DNA from: Chthonomonadaceae bacterium
GTDB lineage: Bacteria; Armatimonadota; Chthonomonadetes; Chthonomonadales; Chthonomonadaceae
Reading direction: 5' to 3'
NCBI GenBank assembly: GCA_025352825.1
Contig: JANXSG010000190.1
Coordinates: 1 to 38,726, forward strand
DNA length: 38,726 nt
Shown here: positions 12,107 through 38,314 of the stretch, piece after piece
Layout of the letters: every line of letters begins with the position of its first letter
Numbering within the stretch: position 1 is the first letter of the stretch
The notes under the pieces: generated by a model
Told to the model about the DNA's origin: nothing
Databases searched by the model: none
Seen by the model: only the letters and a program-made list of their open reading frames with translations
Made by a program: the position numbers and the translations under genes

Positions 12107-12487
12107 ATGGCAAAACGTATCTATGTGGGCGGCCTGCCCTACTCTGCAACCGAGCAGGATCTTGAGAATCTGTTCGCTTCTTCTGGCACTGTCAAAGAAG
12201 TGAGCGTTGTTACTGACCGTTACACTGGCCAGGCAAAAGGTTTTGGTTTTGTGGAAATGGAGAACGACTCGGAAGCAGAATCAGCAATCAATGCGCTTAA
12301 TGGCACAATGATGGGTGGACGCACACTTACCGTTAACGAGGCCAAGCCTCGTGAAGATCGCCCACGAACGGGTGGCGGCGGCGGTGGATATGGCGGCGGT
12401 GGTGGAAGTCGTGGCGGCGGTGGCGGTGGAAACCGTGGCGGCAGCGGCGGCGGCGGCGGCTACAGTGGTGGCGGAAGCCGCTGGTAG
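12107..12487 (+). CDS. Glycine-rich RNA-binding protein with a single RRM
   Basis: A 126-residue protein. One RRM (residues 1-80) carries RNP2 (RIYVGGL) and RNP1 (KGFGFVEM) with the aromatic residues that stack on RNA. After EAKPREDRPR the tail is almost pure Gly with Arg, Tyr and Ser (RGGGGGG, GGYGGGGG), like plant and cyanobacterial Rbp proteins that act as RNA chaperones in the cold. The ATG at 12107 is chosen for its strong ribosome site AAAGGAG; a GTG at 12083 is less likely. The gene is monocistronic, with a perfect consensus promoter, a long leader and a strong terminator, so it is expected to be highly expressed. Confidence 0.95.
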   Translation: MAKRIYVGGLPYSATEQDLENLFASSGTVKEVSVVTDRYTGQAKGFGFVEMENDSEAESAINALNGTMMGGRTLTVNEAKPREDRPRTGGGGGGYGGGGGSRGGGGGGNRGGSGGGGGYSGGGSRW

Positions 12488-25680: not shown

Positions 25681-28600
25681 ATGCCTACTTTTGAAGTCTT
25701 CCTTTCGGGTTTCTTCGCTATCTTTACACATCACCAGTTTCGAGGCAGCGATTTTCTGACCTATCTACAGCGCCCTGCTCCGAGGCGTGCTGGAGACGAA
25801 GCCTCTATTGTTGATAATACAGTTATTAGCCCTCTGCTGGACTTGCTTGGATTTGCTCCTGGAGAGCAGGTTTACAATCAGAATAATAAGAATGGACGCC
25901 CAGACTTCGTACCGACAACCGACGAGTATGGGGACTGTTTCGTTGTGGAAGATAAAAGCACGGCACTCGATTTGACCCTGGATATTGCCGATCCCGAAAG
26001 TAATCTATCTCAACTTTTTGGCTATATGCGTTCGCTCGGCCTGAGTTCCGGATGGCTGACGAATGGCAGACGTTTAATGGTCTGGCAGTTAAGCAATCCC
26101 TTGCAGCTCGAATGTAAGATTGATCTGGACATACCGTTAGCTCTGCGCGAACGGGCATCTGGCGGCGAAAACGGCCTCTCCCCAGCCACAAAGCAGGCGC
26201 TTCTCACACTCTGGGAACGTTTTCGTAAAGAGACGTTTGCGGACTGGGAACTATTGGAAAAAGAAATCGCTACAGAGTTAGATGAGTGGCAGCTTCAAGC
26301 TCTTCCAGTGGGCGGGAATGAAGCCAATCAGGAACTGCTTGTCGATGCGGTTAAGTCGCTCTTGCAAGACCTACAGGTGGATGCACGAAAAAAACTGGAT
26401 GTCCATCTACAGCGTCATGCAGAATACACTGCCACCCGCGACCGGCTGCACGCAGGCGACAGAGAGACAATTCCACAACGTCTGGATATTCTGCGAGAGC
26501 GTGTGTTATCTGAACTGAAACGTTTCGCGCCGCTTGTGGGGTTGGAACCAGATGAAGTCAGTACAATAACGGACAGTCTGTACACACTTGAGCACGATCC
26601 GCGAATATTTCTGAACACAAAAGAACTGTTGTCGACGACACTGAAGACTATCAATGCGGCAAGTATGCGCAAGTTCGCAGATGATAGAAAGGGTGTCAAG
26701 GCATGGTCAAAATTCGATAACGGCCTGGGCGCACTTGGAGGCGCACTACAAGAGTTTGGCGATGTGGCCTTTACCTGGCATCAGAAAGCAGCGCTATATC
26801 AGTACGACTATCGCGAGTCTATCCAGGTTTATGAGAACTATACCATCTGGAAAGCTGTGGTGCAGGAGACGATGCTTGGCGGCCTGGAAGAAGCGCAGCG
26901 GCGCGATGAGTTTGCGCTGCAAGCAACCTACGTCATCTTTATCCGTCTGCTGCTCATTCGTGTCTGTGAGGACAAAGGAATCCTCCCTAATCCAATACTA
27001 TCCGACGGCGGGCTGAAACGCTGGCAGGATGTCATTGAACGATACTTCATCTTTACGACTGGAAATCCTTATAACACACTTTTAGACATCGCGTACCAGA
27101 ACGCGCAGAACATCTACGCGCACTTCTTCACCGGGCGCGAACTATTCAACTGGTACAGCCTTGACCGTCTGCGTTTCATCCGAGTCCTCTACCAACTGAA
27201 TCGATTCAACTTTACAAACGTCGACTCAGACCTCATCGGCACGATCTATAACACCTATGTCGGGCGGCCAGAGAAGAAGTAGAAGGGGCAGTACTATACG
27301 CCTCCACAGATCGTCAACTACATTTTGGACGAGAGCGGTTACGTGATCGGCTCGGGAATTATCGGTTCAAACAAGCGGCTGATTGATCCGGCTTGCGGCA
27401 GTGGTACGTTTCTGGTTGAGGCGGCGAGGCGATTAGTGGCAGCGTACAGTTCAGTCGGTGGGTCGCCGCCTATGCATCTCATCGACAGGGTTCGCGAAAA
27501 CCTATACGGTTTCGACCTTAACCCCTTCGCCTGCTACCTTGCAGAGGTCAACCTGCTCATACAGGTTCTCGACCTGGTAAAGCTGGCTCTTGATGGTAAA
27601 ACGCCCCCGAATCTACAGCGGTTCCACGTCTACAACGTCGATGCTTTGGCTCCTTCCAGTGGAGTGCTCTATTTTGCGCGCTCGAACACGCTGATGGGGG
27701 AAGAGTTAGATATTGTCGATCGCATCAAGGGCCGCCATGAGGAGTATCAGTCAGGATTCGGGTGGGTTGTAGCTAATCCGCCCTATGGGGCTGGCCTGAC
27801 AGAGAGTTACAAACTCTCACTGCGTGAGTGGTGGCCCTCTGTCTTCTATGGCAAACCGGATACCTATGTGTTCTTTTTCGCTCTTGGCCTTCAACTACTT
27901 GGAGCAAACGGGCGGCTAGGTTTCATCACCCCGAACACTTATTTGATGGGAACCAACACTGCGAACTTGCGAGAACAACTGTTATCTGCAGGCCGTATCA
28001 CACAGATTGTGGATTTGCCTTCAGGTATGTGGAGGGATATGAACGTGGACTGCGTGCTGCTTTTTCTCGCGCTAGACAGTGATGAGGAGCGGCGCAAATC
28101 GCAGCAAACGCAAGTTTTCAGTATGAATGTTCGCGATACTCTGGAAAAACTGACCGGGAGAGAGTGGCAGGAAACGTTCACGCAGTCGCAAAGTAAGTGG
28201 ATAGAAGCCCAACAACACGAAATAAATATAAGGTAGACTCCCTTGCTAACCCAGATTGAGGAGGCGTGTCGTGTCAATATAGAAGACGGTCTCTCAACGA
28301 AAATTCAACGTCTTGGTGATATAACTCAGAGTATGCAAGGCATCATTCCGTATAAAACTAAAGCCGAGGGGACATCAAATCTGTACATCAGACCCCAGGT
28401 AGAAGTACCTTTGAATGAATTAGAATGGAAGCCGTTATTGGATGGAAGCGGGTTTGTAGGCAGGTACGAGATGCTTTGGGGCAAAAGTCACCCTTTCTTG
28501 AAATATGGTAAATGGCTATGGTGTCCACGTGAACCGAAATACTTTACTTCAGCTAAGCTGATAGTTCAGTATATGCGTAATCGTGCTTTAAAACGCCGTA

Positions 28601-29478
28601 TTGTCGCCACATATGATGATACCGGGATCTATAATCGTCATAACTTCAGTAATATTATAGCTGGTGATCCAATATATGAACTGAAGTATATACTCGCTTT
28701 ATTCAATTCATCACTTCTGAACTATTGGTATGCACGTCACTATGACAATGTCAACATCAATCCTGATTACTTTCGTACTTTACCAATCTATCCCGCGAGC
28801 ACAGCGGCACAATCCGAAATCATCGTGCAGGTAGATCGGCTGCTGGAGAAACATGCCGCACTGAATGCCCTGCGAGAACAAGGCTATATCATATGCACTC
28901 ACCGTGACGGAACTCATGAAATCGTCATTCCCTATGATGTTCTGCTCGGCCAGATGAAGGATGCAGACCCCAATCTCCCTCTATTCTCTTTATACGATGC
29001 GCAGGCGGTGGGGCTTTTGCGGTTACCCGTGCAGTGCGACCAAGCCGCACAGATTTCGCGAGTATTTACACCGAACAAGTTTCCCAATACCGTCGTACTC
29101 CGTACCAGTAAACTCTGGCTGGAAGTAGACGATGCGGATATACGCCGCTTCCTGCTGAACTACCTGGACCGCCCACAGTGGAAATGTCGATCGTGGGACG
29201 AGATTTCCACCATTGCGCTTCTGCCAGAAACTCCAGCTGCCCTGACGGCATTCTTCACTGAGGAGGCGCGGATCACTGCAGGAATACGGAAGGCATTAGA
29301 AGTGGTGGCTTCAGCAGACACAGAGATTGACCGGCGTGTTCTTGATCTCTACGGCATTACAGACCCGGCAGATCGCCAGCAAATTCTTGGCAGCGCTCCC
29401 GTCGGAGATGATATCGAGACGGAATTGGAAGACTCTGGTGAAGAAGAAGTATCCTCTTCCGAATCCGTTGCAGACTGA
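25681..29478 (+). pseudogene. Type IIG restriction-modification enzyme interrupted by two in-frame TAG codons
   Basis: One frame of 1266 codons from ATG 25681 to TGA 29478 is broken only by TAG at 27280-27282 and TAG at 28234-28236; there is no frameshift. Residues 1-190 form an N-terminal nuclease (RPDFVPTTDEYGDCFVVEDKS, PD-ExK type). A helical connector (about 190-533) follows. Right after the first TAG comes GQYYTPPQIVNYIL, the start of the N6-adenine methyltransferase domain, with motif I DPACGSGTF and motif IV NPPYG. The second TAG precedes the target-recognition region (to about 850-1266). In an intact enzyme these parts would cut and methylate DNA. As read, three separate proteins or none would result; the methylase part has no obvious start. 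A substitution-inactivated gene or read-through are both possible. Confidence 0.85.
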
Positions 29479-30463: not shown

Positions 30464-31801
30464 TTGGTTACAGGACTGATAATAATGCTGCTGACTACTA
30501 CCTTAGTTGATTCACATGCCGCCACTAAAATCTCGATATGGAATATCTGGCAAGTAAAGGTATCTCCTGGAACAGTGAAGATTGGCCGCCGGCGGATCCA
30601 GATCAAGGCTGAAACGACACTGGATATTATGCCATCTGAGATGATAACCGTGAAAGATGAGCCATTCTCCATCCTTCCTCTCTACGATGAGAAAGGCGCT
30701 CCATGGGCACGAGGCGCTAAACCGCATGGTCTTGTCACGTTCGAAACAACAGCTCCTGATATGTTGGTAGTAGACAGTTTCAATCTCAAACTGAGTACAG
30801 GTGAAGCAACTCCATTGAAACGCGGATTGGACTATGAAATCGAAATGCGCTGGGCAACATTCGGTCGGCTTGTGGGTGGTTCCATCGGAGCTGATATACC
30901 GGTATATGCAGACTACTCCTACGGGAAGTCTCGGATCGATTCAATCGTTGTTGATGAGGAAGGTGCTGTTTCGGTCGTTCAAGGTAAACCGCATGTTTCT
31001 ACTCCTACTCCGCCACAACTGCAAGGTGGATCGATTGCTTTTGCCAATATTTGGGTTCCCGGCCGACTCACCGCTCTCACGGCTGAAAATATTTACCCGA
31101 TTCTGGAATCAAAGTACCCTGATATGACATCCGGAACTCATGCTCCTGCTGAAACTCTGCTTCCGAAGACCTGGACGAAACTAACCAACGGTCAGCCTTT
31201 GAAGATACTCGCTTGGGGAGACAGCGTGACAGACGGTGGGCAGGCAAGCGATTCCGCGCATCAGTATCAGCGCCGCTTTGAAAGTTTACTGCAGAAAAAA
31301 TTCCCTGCCGCAGCTATCCACCTTTCGACGGTGGCATGGGGTGGCAGGAACACGGACAGCTTCCTTCAGGAGCCGCCTGGTTCCCCTTACAATTTTACGG
31401 AGAAAATAATTGGCACGCATCCCGATTTGATTATCATGGAGTTTGTAAACGATGCGTATATGACTCCTGCGGTTGTGGAACAGAAGTACTCTTATCTGTT
31501 GAAACGCTTTCAGGAGATCGGGGCGGAGTGGATAATCCTTACGCCGCACTATGTCCGCCCGGACTGGATGGGAGTATCGAATGTGCGCGTCGAATCCGAT
31601 CCCAGGCCTTATGTAGCTGGTTTACGCCAGTTTGCTAAGAAGCATAATATTGCTTTGGCGGATGCTTCGCTGCGTTGGGGACATCTGCTCAAAGAGGGAA
31701 TTCCGTATATCACACTCCTCAGCAACTCAATCAACCATCCCGACGACCGCGGCCACGAAATGTTCGCACAATCACTGATAGAGTTTTTCGGCGGACAGTA
31801 G
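30464..31801 (+). CDS. Secreted SGNH/GDSL hydrolase
   Basis: A 445-residue exported esterase-like protein. The start is TTG at 30464, with AAGGA about seven bases upstream and a signal peptide (LIIMLLTTTLVDSHA) right after; no ATG is available upstream in frame. Residues 25-230 are beta-rich and unassigned. The hydrolase domain (about 235-445) has block I WGDSVTDG with the catalytic Ser, an Asn-containing EFVNDAY, and the C-terminal NHPDDRGHEMFA with the Asp-x-x-His pair. The substrate is likely an acylated glycan, by analogy only. It lies between broken genes but is itself intact. Confidence 0.85.
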   Translation: MVTGLIIMLLTTTLVDSHAATKISIWNIWQVKVSPGTVKIGRRRIQIKAETTLDIMPSEMITVKDEPFSILPLYDEKGAPWARGAKPHGLVTFETTAPDMLVVDSFNLKLSTGEATPLKRGLDYEIEMRWATFGRLVGGSIGADIPVYADYSYGKSRIDSIVVDEEGAVSVVQGKPHVSTPTPPQLQGGSIAFANIWVPGRLTALTAENIYPILESKYPDMTSGTHAPAETLLPKTWTKLTNGQPLKILAWGDSVTDGGQASDSAHQYQRRFESLLQKKFPAAAIHLSTVAWGGRNTDSFLQEPPGSPYNFTEKIIGTHPDLIIMEFVNDAYMTPAVVEQKYSYLLKRFQEIGAEWIILTPHYVRPDWMGVSNVRVESDPRPYVAGLRQFAKKHNIALADASLRWGHLLKEGIPYITLLSNSINHPDDRGHEMFAQSLIEFFGGQ

Positions 31802-31916
31802 AACCATAAGAATCGACCATGCGAACAGTTTATGTATTCAGTTCACCTTACTTCATTATGATATCCGCCAAATCCAAACCTACTTACGATGCGTGATATA
31901 GGCGAGGAGACTGAAA

Positions 31917-32111
31917 ATGAAGTTCAATAAAGCTATTATTCGAATCTCTACTTTTTTGGGAGGTATAGGTGGCCATTAAAAGAAATATTTTGAAGGCACC
32001 TGGCTAGGTACAACAGTTGGGCTGTTCGGAGGCTGTGGAATCGGTGTGCAAGATATTAGGCTGAACCAGAAGTATTTGGCCGCCGAGTTGATCGGGCAGT
32101 TCCATACCTGA
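31917..32111 (+). pseudogene. Possible 64-codon small gene with an in-frame TAA
   Basis: From ATG 31917 (strong ribosome site GAGGAG nine bases upstream) the frame reads MKFNKAIIRISTFLGGIGGH, a TAA at 31977, then KKYFEGTWLGTTVGLFGGCG and on to TGA at 32109. It looks like a small hydrophobic, Gly-rich protein with one membrane segment, cut by a stop at codon 21. Alternatively the first 20 codons alone are a leader-like peptide. I recognise no family. Confidence 0.35.
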
Positions 32112-32389
32112 TGGCGCCAGCAGTGCTACGCGTTAGATCGCGTGCAACAAAGCCTAACGCGGATAGCTTTCCCGCAGGGATAGTATTGAAGTTCCGAAGC
32201 CAGGCAAGCGCTCGAACGCATTAGCGGGTGAATAATCTGGAATGTTAAAACGACCTTCTTTGACATGCTCTTGCGTATTCGATCATGAATGCGTGGAGCT
32301 ATTTTTGATTCAATGCGTGATATTCATTTTGATAAAACTACTATCAGTATGGATTGGAGTAACTTCAGAATAATTCTGCATAAAGTCTT

Positions 32390-32925
32390 GAAGTCATGAG
32401 TGAAAACGTTAGTGTATCAGTAGAATTGTGCAGAATAACTGAGCAATCTTTCGAATATCCGATGACATGTTTCGAGAATATATATGCAATCTGTGTGAAA
32501 TCGGAGTAAACATGCGAAAGATTTCCGTATACATGTGAAGGATTGTTGTTAAGCTGCAAAAGACCGAGGTAAAGCAGTGAAGGAATAGTGCAAAACTGTG
32601 AAAGATCCCAGTCAAACTGTGTAGGTTCGGAGTAAAACTGCGAGAAACTGAAGCATTGTTGTAAGAAACTGAAGCATTGTTGTGAGAAACTCGTCCGGTT
32701 TCAAGCGAAACTATAGCTATTTCTCAGGAAAATATGATTATTTCCAACAAAAAATGGTAGTTTCCAGGGAAACCGGTCTTATTCCCTGGGAAATCGACCA
32801 AATACTGTGAGAAATAAGAATTTTTTTGTGGGAAATCAGACATATTCCCGGAGAAAACATCCAGTTGCTGTGAGAAACCGGTGTTATTTTTAGGGAAACC
32901 AGAATAGTTCTTTGGGAAACCGAGC
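32390..32925. repeat. Degenerate array with a 21-bp period
   Basis: A short core, mostly RRGAAA (GGGAAAC, GAGAAAC), recurs with nearly exact 21-base spacing: 32600, 32621, 32642, 32663, 32684, 32705, 32726, 32747, 32767, 32788, 32809, 32830, 32851, 32872, 32893 and 32914 (one step is 20). Weaker copies extend left to about 32390 with steps of 19-23. The 15 bases between cores differ from unit to unit, except two adjacent identical units (GAAACTGAAGCATTGTTGT, from 32644 and 32665). In any frame this gives heptad-like peptides, so short reading frames here are a by-product. It may be a DNA-binding array or decayed minisatellite. Confidence 0.85.
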
Positions 32926-33231
32926 CCACGCTACAGCCGTAGCATACTGAATCTCGAAGCAAAAGATAAATTTATTGTATAGATCACTCGAGGATTTTGA
33001 ATATTTATAAATTTCACCTCCATTCATCAGGCGATATTATGTTTGCTTGAAAAGTAATGACCCATATATCAGTTTTTTAATAATAATACTTGAGATTACC
33101 GTAAAGTGTGTAAAAATAAACTGAATTTTTATATCTCGTGCACAGCACGCAGTGGTAGCGAAGGAAAAAATAAAATGATCATTCCTTTTAAACTTTGAAC
33201 CTACGCGTGAATTCGAGATTTATTTTGGAAT

Positions 33232-33262
33232 TCTCTGTGCCTCTGCGTACTCTGCGCGAGAA
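33232..33262. repeat. CTCTGYG short tandem motif
   Basis: CTCTGTGC, CTCTGCGTA and CTCTGCGCG follow one another. Similar strings occur between genes in many environmental bacteria. The rest of 32930-33350 is AT-rich with no gene or other signal I can name. Confidence 0.4.
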
Positions 33263-33352
33263 ATTGTATTGGATGTTTGTGCTAAAAGTTTCCACAGTTT
33301 TTACAGCAATGCCTAAGTATTAAACAGTTACTTGTGTGCAGGATATTTTTCT

Positions 33353-33414
33353 TATCTCATCCCCTGCCTCTCTCCTTAGTATTCCATCGCAATCTCGGAC
33401 GAGAGGGGAGATAG
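33353..33414. repeat. C/G-rich imperfect inverted repeat
   Basis: ATCTCATCCCCTGCCTCTCT pairs imperfectly with GAGAGGGGAGATAGG. It is an eroded member of the dispersed palindrome family and lies just before the DUF488 gene. Confidence 0.5.
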
Positions 33415-33453
33415 GAACTTCACCCCCGGTTACTGTGAGTTCTAAGATGGTTC

Positions 33454-33462
33454 TGGTATAAT
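33454..33462 (+). promoter_or_regulatory. Extended -10 promoter element TGGTATAAT
   Basis: TGG directly followed by a perfect TATAAT (33457-33462) forms an extended -10 site. It touches the ATG at 33463, so if this promoter is used, translation of the DUF488 gene must begin later, for example at TTG 33496 after GGAG. Confidence 0.45.
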
Positions 33463-33981
33463 ATGCCTGAGTACGGGTGTTGTGGAGTATTGAACTTGCA
33501 GGAACTGTTGACTATCGGCTACGAAGGGCTGAATACCCATCAGTTTATAGGGCTGCTGAAGTTGGGGGATGTGCAGACTGTGGTGGATATTCGCCAGATG
33601 CCGCTGAGCAGGAAACCTGGCTTTTCTAAAAAGTCGCTGTCGCTATTAGTGCAGGCTCATGATATGGACTATATCCATATTGGCGCTCTTGGATGCCCGA
33701 AGGATATCCGAAACGACTACTATTGAGACCGGGACTGGATCGAATATACTGTTCGCTTTAAAACTTATTTGGAAATACAGTTAGAATCGATGACCATCCT
33801 GGCTAAACTTGCAATGGATAAACGCTGCTGCCTGCTCTGTTTTGAAGTTGATCCTAACTATTGCCATCGTCTATTTGTCGCTGAGCGCTTATCGTCTATC
33901 ACAGATACGAGTTTTGAAATACATCACCTCATAAATCAAGAACCAATTCAAACTGCTCCTGTAGTTTCTGATGCGGTTTAG
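33463..33981 (+). pseudogene. DUF488 gene with an in-frame TGA
   Basis: A frame of 173 codons reads LTIGYEGLNTHQFIGLLK, VVDIRQMPLSRKPGF, then GALGCPKDIRNDYY, a TGA at 33724-33726, and continues in the same frame as DRDWIEYTVRF and CCLLCFEVDPNYCHR to TAG 33981. The motifs (TIGYEG, DIR..P.S...GF, LG.PK..R, C-F-E-x-x-x-x-C-HR) are those of DUF488, small proteins of unknown function with a C-x6-CHR site. CGA to TGA at this codon would restore an expected Arg. As read, only the first half would be made, unless the stop is read through. The start is uncertain (see the promoter at 33454). Confidence 0.8.
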
Positions 33982-34198: not shown

Positions 34199-37100
34199 TT
34201 GGCTGACCTAATCCAGATGGGTGAATTCATGACCGGTGGCGAAGAGCGGACGGCAATACGCCTTCGCGATAACCTCCCAGGTAATTGGAAGATAATTGCG
34301 AATAAAGTCATTCCTTTTCCTAATGGTGTCAGTCGCGAAATCGATTTCATAATCCTAGGCACAAATCGCATCTTCGTTGTGGATAGCAAAGGTCTTCGTG
34401 GCAAGATTCATGGTACTGATGCATATTGGATTTTAGCTAGCGGTGAAAGCCGTGACAACCCACTCAATAAAGTTGAAATGATTGCCCGAAGCCTGGCGGG
34501 CCGCATCAGAGCTGAAGTTCCCTTTATTAGGGACGGGTTGGGAAACGCGCCTTTTGTAGAAGCCGTCATCGTGTTCTCTGATGCCGATGTAGAATTCTTG
34601 ATACAAGAACCGCGTAGAGATCACATCCTTAAACTAGCAGACTCCGACGCCGCACTCAAGCGGCTAGACCGATTGGGTAAGGACAAAAGTATTGCACCTT
34701 TCCGCGATAAGATTTTGCAACGTTTAAATCTCCTTCCACCGCGTGAAACACTCCCGAAACTCATCAACACTTTCCGTATCATTGAACCGCTTGCTGATGG
34801 ACCACACTATCGTGCCTTCCTAGCGCAGAACGAGGCAGACGCTGCTTCGCCGCGCCGACTTAAGATGTATCGACTAAGCGGTCTTTCTGTGGAGGAACGA
34901 GAAGAGCAAAAGAGACTGATCTTTCGTGATTACAGCGCTTTGGTACGCCTCGCTGAAACCCGACTTACGCCAGGCGTTGATTCGCCATTTAGTTGGGCCG
35001 ACGATCAATATATGATTGTGCCACAACGAATCTTTAATCTGCCTTCGCTTCGGTCGACATATTCTGTCACCGTCAACAATACACCACTTGTTTTTCGCCT
35101 TAAACTGGCTGAGCGGCTGCTATCGGGCCTCAAAACTTTACACACGAATGGCGTCCTCCATCGTAATCTAACTCCAGATAATATATTCGTAGATGCCTCT
35201 ATCGACCCACCACGAATCGGATTCGCTGATTTCGACTTTGCTCGCATTCCAGGTTCTCAATCTATCGCTACGACAATAGATGAACTTATTTCTTACACAC
35301 CTTATCTTGCTCCGGAAATTAAAATTGGAGCGAGTTTTGCCGATGAAACTACAGACGTATTCGCGCTCGGAGTGATATTGCTTGAACTCTTTACCGGGCA
35401 GTCCGCAGATGAATTGCGTGACCATGATGGAAATCTACGTTGCCCGCAACTCACTTCGGATGATCCTCTCTTGACACCTCAGGAGATGGATGATTTGCGT
35501 GACATTCTTAACTTAATGATTGCATCCGATTCTCGTCTGCGTAGCAACGTGGATGACGGATATCAACTAGTAAAAGATCTTCTTGCGTCTCGCCAGAAAC
35601 GCGATGTTTCATCGCCTGCCTCTATCCCGTCTGTCAGAGAAAATCAGAATGCTGCCCAAACGTCGTCCGTTCTTACTTCCATTGGAATTTATCAGCCTAA
35701 CGACTACGTCGGAGAACGATATAAAATCGAGCGAATATTGGGGCAGGGCGTAACGGCAAATACTTACCTCGCCTATGATGATGTGGCTAACGATCTTTAT
35801 GTTTTAAAGCAAATTAGACATCGGGATGAAGCTGACCGTTTAGCCCGGAATGAGTTTGCTGCGCTAAAACGGTTACATCATCCCAACATAGTGCGCGTAG
35901 TAGATGTGTTTTCATCCCGCGATCCATTTCAGTTAAAGATGGAATACGTCGCAGGAGATTCATTATTTGACCTCTGGCAAAGACATGATTTTCCGTGGGA
36001 ATGGGAAAAAGTGGCTACCTTTGGAGACGCTGCTCTGAGCGCACTGGAGTATTTGGAAGAAAAAGGGGTGGCGCATCGAGATATATCTGGCCGAAATGTC
36101 ATGGTACTACCGGACGGAAAGCCAAAGATAATCGATTTCGGATTTGCAAGCCCTGTTAGAGATTTGAATGAAACTCAAGTTGGCACTGCTCTCTATCGCG
36201 CCCCTGAATTGGAACACGGTGAAAGTTGGAACAAAACATGCGATGCTTATGCTATGGCAGTTCTGCTTTACCAAATGCTTTTGGGCGAAATTCCGTTTGA
36301 GCAAACCATAAGCGGGAATTATGATAAAACAGCAGTCCACTCGATGCCGACGATAGTAGGCGGAGATATCGATACAACTCGAAAAGCAGAATTGGGTGGC
36401 GTTCTGCTACGTGCATTATCTTCAGAAAGATCAGCACGATTCGATTCGGTTCACGCGTTTCGAGTCGCATTTCACGAAGCAATCCGCTTCACAACAAGGG
36501 AGGCCGTGGAAGCAATCGGCGAGCGTCGGATCAATTTTTGGGTTCAAAATATTCAAGGATTGTACCGTAACAGTCGAGTCGGGAATGCGGACAACCGTGG
36601 ACTGGACTCGCTTTTCGCTCGTGATACCTACGTTCCAACCAGATTAGATACGGAACTCCGCCCGCGTTTGTTTGGCGACAATCCATTTCAGGACGAAGCG
36701 CGCTACGCCGTGCTTTTATTAAGTGGAAATCCCGGTGATGGGAAAACAGCATTTTTGGAAACCTTGCGCCATGATCTCGAAACTCGTGGTGCAACAACGC
36801 TGCGCGTTGACAAAAACGGTTGGCAATACATTTTAGACGGACACACCTACGCTGCCAATTACGATGCTTCCGAATCTCATAATGGTAAACGCGCAAATGA
36901 ACTACTGGAAGAAATCCTGGAACCTTTTCAAGGAACCGCATTCAACGTTAAAAACTACACTGCTTTGCTGGCAATCAACGATGGAAAGCTACGTGACTTT
37001 TTGCTGAATAATGCACTCTACCCTGAGCTTGGTGAACAGGTACGGCGTTTGCTTGAGCAAACAGGAGAACCTACCGATCCGCGCATAGCATTGATAGACT

Positions 37101-38314
37101 TGAAACAGCGGTCTATAGTGAGTGGTACGCTCGACAAGAACAAAGATGATCTATTCGAATTAACTTTGAACAAACTACTAGATAAGAGTGGATGGCAGGA
37201 CTGCGAATCTTGTCGCGCTCGACAAGCCTGCCCGATGAAGTTTAATCGCGATTCTCTTTCAGATTCGGAAAACGGAGGTACAGTTCGAGGTCGACTTCGC
37301 AATTTGTTGCAAATAATGCATCTAAGAAATGAACGCCATATTACAATGCGAGATATGCGCTCAATGCTGGCATTCATTATTGCGGGCAATGCGACATGCG
37401 AGGAGATTCATGATGCTCTTGAAAGCGGGCGAATTGCCGAAGAAGCTACCAGTCGTCTATATTTCATGGCCGCTTTCAACCCACTCGGTGAAAGTGACGA
37501 AACACTGCAATACCTTGCCGGTTCCGACCCCAGTCGAACTGCTGTACCGCGATTGGATCAGTTCCTATTTTTTCGTCGCAGCCACAACAGACAGGAAGAA
37601 ATTGAACGTGTGCTATTTTCGCTTAAAGAGCGTTCGACTACCCCCTTGCAAGCGCTGCAACCGGTGGCGCTGGGTGCAGAATGGCACGTCGCGCTGAAAC
37701 GACGAGTATTCTTTGAAGGTGATCACGAAGCTTTGAAAATGGAAGCTGTGCCTCTACCCGATCCCCAGTCGCTACTACCATACCGCCACTTCAACGCTTT
37801 TCTGCAAGCCGCATGCAACGAAACCCCACCCAATATATTACGGGATAATATATGCGAAGCTATTTCACGCGCCAATGGAATTGTTGAGTCGTACGATACT
37901 CATTTGTGCGTTCGTACAGCGCGCAATGACTCGCTCGATTTAACTGTGTTTAAGAAATTCCCTGTATCCGAATTTATATGCGAGGTTGGTAAAGCCCCGA
38001 CCTCGCAAGTGGAATCTCTACCGAATACTATTCGATTTAGCCACATAAAAAGTGATGCTGTATTAATAGTAAGCCTGGATCTCTTCGAAATTTTAATGCG
38101 TTTCACAGAAGGGTATCGCGAGGGCATCGAGGAACAGGAGCCATTCATAATTGACCTAGCCCAGTTTCAGAATCGTCTACTTAACCAACGCGCTGTTGAA
38201 CTGCTGCTTCTTGAAGGTGGGCGTCAGATGCATCGCGTTCGTCAACAGCGAGGCAAAATTGAATTATTGCCTCTGCACGAATCTAGCGCAGAAGCGACAA
38301 AAGGAAAACGATGA
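34199..38314 (+). CDS. NERD-pseudokinase-Ser/Thr kinase-NTPase fusion protein, candidate defence protein
   Basis: A 1371-residue multidomain protein, soluble. Residues 10-130 are a NERD nuclease-like domain (E47-I-D49, then VVDSK with D62 and K64). A first kinase fold (about 186-470) has HRN (321-323) for HRD and DFD (344-346) for DFG, so it is probably inactive. A second kinase (508-755) is complete: GQGVTANTY loop, K537, HRD 626-628, DFG 646-648, APE 668-670. From about 770 to the end there is a P-loop NTPase: Walker A GNPGDGKT (843-850) and a cysteine cluster C1002-x2-C1005-x5-C1011. The start is TTG, with AGGGGA six bases upstream. NERD plus kinase recalls PglW of BREX type 2; the C-terminal part recalls DptF-like ATPases. 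It overlaps the next gene by ATGA. Confidence 0.85.
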   Translation: MADLIQMGEFMTGGEERTAIRLRDNLPGNWKIIANKVIPFPNGVSREIDFIILGTNRIFVVDSKGLRGKIHGTDAYWILASGESRDNPLNKVEMIARSLAGRIRAEVPFIRDGLGNAPFVEAVIVFSDADVEFLIQEPRRDHILKLADSDAALKRLDRLGKDKSIAPFRDKILQRLNLLPPRETLPKLINTFRIIEPLADGPHYRAFLAQNEADAASPRRLKMYRLSGLSVEEREEQKRLIFRDYSALVRLAETRLTPGVDSPFSWADDQYMIVPQRIFNLPSLRSTYSVTVNNTPLVFRLKLAERLLSGLKTLHTNGVLHRNLTPDNIFVDASIDPPRIGFADFDFARIPGSQSIATTIDELISYTPYLAPEIKIGASFADETTDVFALGVILLELFTGQSADELRDHDGNLRCPQLTSDDPLLTPQEMDDLRDILNLMIASDSRLRSNVDDGYQLVKDLLASRQKRDVSSPASIPSVRENQNAAQTSSVLTSIGIYQPNDYVGERYKIERILGQGVTANTYLAYDDVANDLYVLKQIRHRDEADRLARNEFAALKRLHHPNIVRVVDVFSSRDPFQLKMEYVAGDSLFDLWQRHDFPWEWEKVATFGDAALSALEYLEEKGVAHRDISGRNVMVLPDGKPKIIDFGFASPVRDLNETQVGTALYRAPELEHGESWNKTCDAYAMAVLLYQMLLGEIPFEQTISGNYDKTAVHSMPTIVGGDIDTTRKAELGGVLLRALSSERSARFDSVHAFRVAFHEAIRFTTREAVEAIGERRINFWVQNIQGLYRNSRVGNADNRGLDSLFARDTYVPTRLDTELRPRLFGDNPFQDEARYAVLLLSGNPGDGKTAFLETLRHDLETRGATTLRVDKNGWQYILDGHTYAANYDASESHNGKRANELLEEILEPFQGTAFNVKNYTALLAINDGKLRDFLLNNALYPELGEQVRRLLEQTGEPTDPRIALIDLKQRSIVSGTLDKNKDDLFELTLNKLLDKSGWQDCESCRARQACPMKFNRDSLSDSENGGTVRGRLRNLLQIMHLRNERHITMRDMRSMLAFIIAGNATCEEIHDALESGRIAEEATSRLYFMAAFNPLGESDETLQYLAGSDPSRTAVPRLDQFLFFRRSHNRQEEIERVLFSLKERSTTPLQALQPVALGAEWHVALKRRVFFEGDHEALKMEAVPLPDPQSLLPYRHFNAFLQAACNETPPNILRDNICEAISRANGIVESYDTHLCVRTARNDSLDLTVFKKFPVSEFICEVGKAPTSQVESLPNTIRFSHIKSDAVLIVSLDLFEILMRFTEGYREGIEEQEPFIIDLAQFQNRLLNQRAVELLLLEGGRQMHRVRQQRGKIELLPLHESSAEATKGKR

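Follow-up and report, generated by a model that had tools for sequence, protein, structure and literature searches.

A 21-bp repeat array beside a decayed gene in a Chthonomonadaceae genome belongs to a gene-array unit found in several phyla

Several described systems place tandem repeats beside a gene. In multi-site operators and plasmid iterons, dyad or directional protein sites stand in tandem, phased at about two helical turns, next to the gene that is controlled, and parS or centromere-like arrays (ParABS, ParMRC, TubZR) are likewise rows of protein sites. Type III toxin-antitoxin loci (ToxIN, CptIN, TenpIN) carry a locus-specific tandem-repeat array directly upstream of a gene of about 170–230 codons, and their repeats, of about 34–48 nt, act as RNA. 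CRISPR arrays also combine a constant core with variable intervals; their direct repeats are about 23–50 bp long, with spacers of similar size. Here we describe an array from a 38,726-nt contig of a Chthonomonadaceae bacterium (JANXSG010000190.1, analysed whole and called the window below) that resembles each of these in part. Its kind differs from multi-site operators and iterons in that the motif changes from locus to locus while the 21-bp step is kept, with up to two dozen units per genome.

Tandem 21-bp units occupy positions 32474–32936 of the window, in a stretch of 1.66 kb without a gene (31801–33463), in agreement with an earlier note on this DNA that had placed the array in a gene-poor stretch of about 1.6 kb. 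The strict 21-bp period described there was borne out by autocorrelation: self-match at lag 21 over 32470–32930 was 0.543, compared with 0.265 ± 0.021 (z=13) and a maximum of 0.334 in 2000 dinucleotide-shuffled sequences; harmonics appear at lags 42, 63, 84 and 105. By its 21-bp layout, the left half of the array (32474–32641) consists of about eight units with a plus-strand core of approximately TGYGAARGAT, and these account for the weaker copies that had been noticed to the left. The right half (32642–32936) has 14 units with the core RGAAA (TTTCY on the gene strand). Rather than the sixteen GAAA cores counted before between 32600 and 32914, we find 13 exact ones at 32644–32916 and one degenerate (AAAA at 32749). 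A 20-bp step, reported as the only irregularity, is indeed present in the right half at 32749–32769, but the phase also shifts by +2 within 32600–32644, at the change from the left-half motif TGTGAAAGAT to the right-half motif TGTGAGAAAC. The GAAA core is conserved across units and the intervals, which had been called unrelated, are indeed poorly conserved, although in several right-half units an imperfect TTTC-N4-GAAA inverted repeat spans the unit border.

The same genome holds a second copy of the whole block (C187:14896–16185), 75% identical to that of the window over about 1.3 kb and 80% identical over the right-hand 951 aligned columns, with the distal flank (32937 onwards) shared as far as 33338. 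The left half of the array diverges by 10% between the two copies and the flanks by 17–21%, and the C187 array has one exact 21-bp unit more. GAAA changed at 2 of 56 positions and the remainder at 66 of 239 (Fisher p=3e-5). Two neighbouring units of the window (32643–32663 and 32664–32684), taken earlier for an exact and recent duplicate, are identical at 20 of 21 positions, and since C187 carries the same pair, the duplication is older than the split between the two copies.

A third, more distant copy (C213) shows what the block used to contain, as the left flank there makes up the 5’ end of a gene of 209 codons that is still intact, with the Shine-Dalgarno sequence AAAGGAGG, the sequence MPDYLPSNEFELLAWLQNF... 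and an array 240–366 bp upstream. On the minus strand of the window, 32086–32243 is a decayed 5’ remnant of this family gene (MPDYLP...-fn3), 64% identical to residues 12–53 of the intact C213 homolog in a tblastn-type match; its start codon has changed from ATG to ATT, a frameshift is present and the rest of the gene is missing. Comparison with C213 also reveals a decayed Shine-Dalgarno sequence, AAAGAAGG, at 32253–32260 of the minus strand, and the gap from the gene start to the array (32244–32473) is the counterpart of the 5’ gap at intact loci. The remnant together with its intact counterpart identifies the window array as the upstream region of a gene that is dead in the window. Alignment with the window and C213 shows that the gene is broken in C187 as well, although the array core looks constrained between these two copies. 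The window array, having no living gene, is a relic or solo array, and what the earlier note overlooked is that it belongs upstream of a gene family whose member here has decayed.

Homologs of the 209-aa C213 protein occur in 45 of 291 genomes of the window’s phylum, often many per genome. We took the best-scoring window within 700 bp upstream of the 109 homologs with enough upstream sequence, using other lags as an internal control. Lag 21 was the best of lags 14–30 at 87 of these loci; self-match reached at least 0.5 at lag 21 in 70 of them and at any other lag in at most 2, with the caveat that paralogous loci among the counted arrays are not mutually independent. At this threshold 39 of the 109 loci had no array. 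Among the first 30 loci, the array lay upstream in 20 and downstream in none. Only 2 of 34 control ORFs from the window’s own genome passed the same test, one of them beside a Gly-rich coding repeat and the other in L024, which is the locus of the C213 array. Loss of the period in relatives, which the earlier note had named as grounds for giving up its reading, was therefore not what we saw; the period is conserved.

The link also holds outside this phylum. Before the gene link was discovered, a scan of genome contigs for three TTTC-N4-GAAA motifs at 21-bp steps had given 63 stretches, compared with about 0.001 expected in random sequence, an estimate to be read with care because the true background is increased by tandem repeats and because coding repeats account for several of the 63 matches (for example L189, L217 and L232). 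Many of the stretches come from MAGs of Treponema, Bacteroidales and Planctomycetaceae. Profile recognition found the family gene with the array in the gene-upstream position at L191, L203, L222, L228, L233, L235 and L244, and as a fragment at the array of L226. Of these loci, L228 is from the laboratory strain Pedobacter chitinilyticus CM134L-2. The family is present in all 14 array-bearing genomes tested, with 3–24 matches each, and a lag-21 array scoring at least 0.5 lies upstream of 79 of 84 homologs (Bacteroidota 40/43, Spirochaetota 36/37, Planctomycetota 3/4), with at most 9 at other lags; because the presence of one or more such arrays was what these 14 genomes were selected for, a lower rate may hold in unselected genomes, as it does in the window’s phylum. 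Raising the threshold to at least 0.6 left 76 of the 84 at lag 21 and at most 2 at other lags. The gene-array unit spans at least four phyla, with an invariant 21-bp step and cores that are private to the locus, constrained and often dyad-symmetric.

Some arrays stand apart from this arrangement. In Tannerella sp. Gx481_bin112, two arrays of TTTCACATGAAAC units with similar flanks (L202 and L239) have no recognised family gene in the examined stretch and are apparent solo arrays like that of the window; another, AAGAAAGTGATCTCCGCATTC, from the window’s own order (L159, G016:C1:59273–59424), similarly has no recognised family gene in the stretch examined and is possibly solo. A single array of Planctomycetaceae Ct408_bin98 (L234, 1779–2232) shifts from TTTCAGGTGAAA to TTGCCGGCGCAA units, with both arms changing jointly and the palindrome kept.

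Arrays contain 5–29 units (medians 7 and 10 in the 70-array and 79-array sets, respectively) and stop short of the gene match, upstream of it, by 141 and 81 bp at the median. Every array has a private core of a few conserved bases (3–8 bp). L333, for example, has eight perfect CCGCGG cores separated by variable 15-bp spacers, and others have TGTTGC, ACGTG, TACAA-N5-TTGTA or GGGCC-N2-GGCCC. What the loci have in common is the gene, the upstream place and the 21-bp step, and not the array sequence, with array similarity at 0.32 within a genome and 0.29 between genomes. Paralogs do not share a core, while orthologs at about 70% or more protein identity mostly do; below 60% identity, array similarity showed no signal with protein similarity. 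In four independent ortholog pairs, with the conserved phases defined from one member of each pair, the seven most conserved phases changed at 21 of 266 positions and the others at 136 of 534 (p=8e-10). The family arrays are non-coding, and their cores are constrained while the spacers drift.

In 49 of the 79 arrays and 20 of the 70, the units are more palindromic than column permutation would give. Within the N4 of the TTTC-N4-GAAA set, complementarity is found in 63% of cases for the outer pair and in 20% for the inner pair, which amounts to arms of five around a two-base centre, a layout more in keeping with a dimer site than with an RNA loop. The arms contain 280 G.T and 312 A.C non-Watson-Crick cells, and folding is no better on the gene strand than on the antisense strand (36/79, p=0.31); this strand symmetry argues for double-stranded DNA.

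In our preferred reading, to which we give a probability of roughly 55%, the array lines up putative dyad protein-binding sites in helical phase and acts in cis on the adjacent family gene. A multi-site protein-binding array had been among the candidates of the earlier note, and it fits the reduced change of cores relative to spacers, the constant 21-bp step of about 150 arrays and the many dyad cores, that is, constrained sites at a constant helical phase, as in phased multi-site operators. The array would be the cis-element of a two-part unit made of a 21-bp dyad array and a family gene. Its units would bind a dimeric protein, the two-turn spacing would set all sites on one DNA face, where binding could be cooperative, and an array that overlaps the promoter, or separates it from the start codon, may control its own gene. 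With a different motif at each locus, a locus-specific reader is to be expected, and the simplest candidates are the product of the adjacent gene or a partner that co-evolves with that product.

The family protein itself speaks against this reading in part, as do the 39 homolog loci of the window’s phylum with no array at the 0.5 threshold and the broken genes of the window and C187 beside a core that looks constrained. AlphaFold2 predicts a confident N-terminal helical bundle (three long helices, pLDDT 91 when modelled alone) and a C-terminal fn3-type domain that matches FN3 domains with Z of about 11 over 93 residues at 2.1 Å. However, fn3 is not a typical DNA-binding fold, and a slight acidity of the helical domain (net −1.5) makes direct DNA binding by the family protein a guess. 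Fold searches returned fn3 alone with confidence and listed no DNA-binding fold, an absence that does not exclude one. No significant fold match was found for the helical domain, with Foldseek E-values not significant; it weakly resembles S23-type four-helix bundles and Avd (2rld Z 7.2, 2gsc Z 7.2, 4dwl Z 6.1), at Z values of 6–7 that are common among helical bundles. Family searches gave no known repressor domain, Pfam, NCBIfam and PADLOC gave no family name beyond a weak fn3 match, and PHROGs gave weak matches only, mainly in the fn3 part.

The arrays might instead act as RNA, as a transcribed 5’ leader whose unit hairpins or tandem-repeat RNA regulate the neighbouring gene or bind the protein that it encodes, a reading that we regard as rather unlikely. 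The promoter motif TAnnTTTG is overrepresented in Bacteroidota immediately before the array (18 occurrences, 2.9 expected; 9 on the reverse strand) and less clearly so in the gap between array and gene (7, 3.2 expected), and in 10 of 79 cases no more than 30 bp separate the array from the gene match. These placements suggest that many arrays stand downstream of the promoter and ahead of the ORF, where they could be operators that block or tune transcription, or leader RNA, and so may be transcribed and act as RNA. In 72 of the 79 arrays, moreover, the units fold far better than column-permuted ones, and the order of array and then gene is that generally known from type III toxin-antitoxin loci; here the repeats immediately precede the family gene at 79 of 84 and 70 of 109 loci. 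Yet both strands share this folding advantage, and G.T is no commoner than A.C, so that, unlike in type III systems, there is no RNA-strand bias in pairing or folding; with the outer N4 pair complementary, only 2 nt would remain for a loop, and Rfam gave no credible match, only a sub-threshold histone stem-loop at 18 bits against a gathering score of 34. The protein model of helices and fn3 also appears unlike a ToxN-type fold, and family searches gave no match, an absence that, like the structure lists, does not exclude a ToxN-type endoribonuclease.

We find it less likely still that the arrays are a functionless mutational or selfish by-product, that is, slippage minisatellites made palindromic by hairpin-templated repair and hitch-hiking with a mobile gene. 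Such an origin would agree with the gains and losses of 21 bp seen between the window and C187 and in ortholog pairs, the fast sequence turnover between paralogs, the many dispersed copies per genome and the apparent solo arrays without a gene. At the same time, core changes are 3–10 times rarer than spacer changes in both paralogs and orthologs, and neither the window–C187 comparison nor the ortholog pairs gave equal divergence of core and spacer, an inequality not expected of a neutral minisatellite. Moreover, about 150 arrays with unrelated sequences keep one period, 21, and one place, upstream. A decayed or active heptapeptide-coding minisatellite, also proposed earlier, is very improbable: 21 is divisible by three, some arrays are open in several frames and some pattern matches elsewhere (the L189, L217 and L232 repeats) are truly coding, but codon-phase bias at p<0.05 appeared in only 2 of the 70 and 2 of the 79 upstream arrays (chance level, and no codon-position signal across all 149), some arrays have stops in all six frames, 20- and 22-bp steps break the frame in the window and in C187, and the conserved cores are contiguous runs.

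Of the other known arrangements, an iteron replication origin is rejected by the adjacent protein, for which Pfam, NCBIfam and PHROGs show no Rep domain, and by the 3–24 copies per genome. The cores TTTCACGTGAAA of a few termite-gut arrays (L223 and L225) resemble the parS core by eye; in general, the cores are locus-private and mostly unlike parS, the copies are many and dispersed within a genome, and the adjacent gene is not parA or parB and matches no Par family, so the partition role once suggested is not supported. A CRISPR array is rejected as well, with a whole unit of 21 bp, a core of 3–8 bp, intervals that drift slowly between orthologs and an adjacent gene that is not Cas. A recombination scar, the last of the earlier candidates, found no support. 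Nor did a phage or plasmid origin, as the array DNA had no match in plasmids, protein P0001 none in plasmids or phages, and the L222 protein none in IMG/VR. When viral sequences were scanned for GAAA at 21 bp, most matches were coding or due to chance; three related phage-like IMG/VR contigs (L100, L110 and L153) carry five intergenic, iteron-like 21-bp AGAAAC repeats with variable interval, which, as no family gene was seen there, are analogues at most.

Open-access full-text literature (which leaves aside subscription papers and preprints) yielded no description of the family arrays, and it is on this negative and on the family’s absence from the libraries searched that novelty rests. Tentatively, the loci could form an undescribed multi-phylum gene-array class, with up to two dozen paralogs per genome, private and fast-changing dyad motifs, a fixed 21-bp step and a co-evolving locus-specific factor. 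In that case, nature would supply hundreds of binder-operator pairs that are orthogonal to one another, and reading of the arrays by locus-specific factors would offer ready-made recognition pairs together with a clean case of motif-reader co-evolution. Hundreds of gene-array loci seem to have gone unnoticed in genomes of several phyla, tying a fixed 21-bp geometry, often of dyad units and with no fixed sequence, to one orphan protein family, for which the arrays are a first handle.

The window contains other features of note. Within the distal flank of the repeated block, 33097–33295 is a dispersed CTCTGCG-type repeat, CTCTGTGCCTCTGCGTACTCTGCGCGAGAAATTGTAT..., that also stands alone elsewhere in the genome (G000), without an array, at C245:3644–3840, C158:33751–33952, C130:15517–15593 and C21:44744–44782. 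A Gly-rich GGTGGC-type repeat at 12371–12460 is probably coding. Adjacent ORFs at 27325–29478 encode Eco57I-type N6-methyltransferase and TaqI-like C-terminal specificity domains and are probably a restriction-modification locus; the ORF that precedes them (25681–27282) has no Pfam match. Finally, a 1371-codon ORF at 34199–38314 combines a NERD domain with protein kinase domains.
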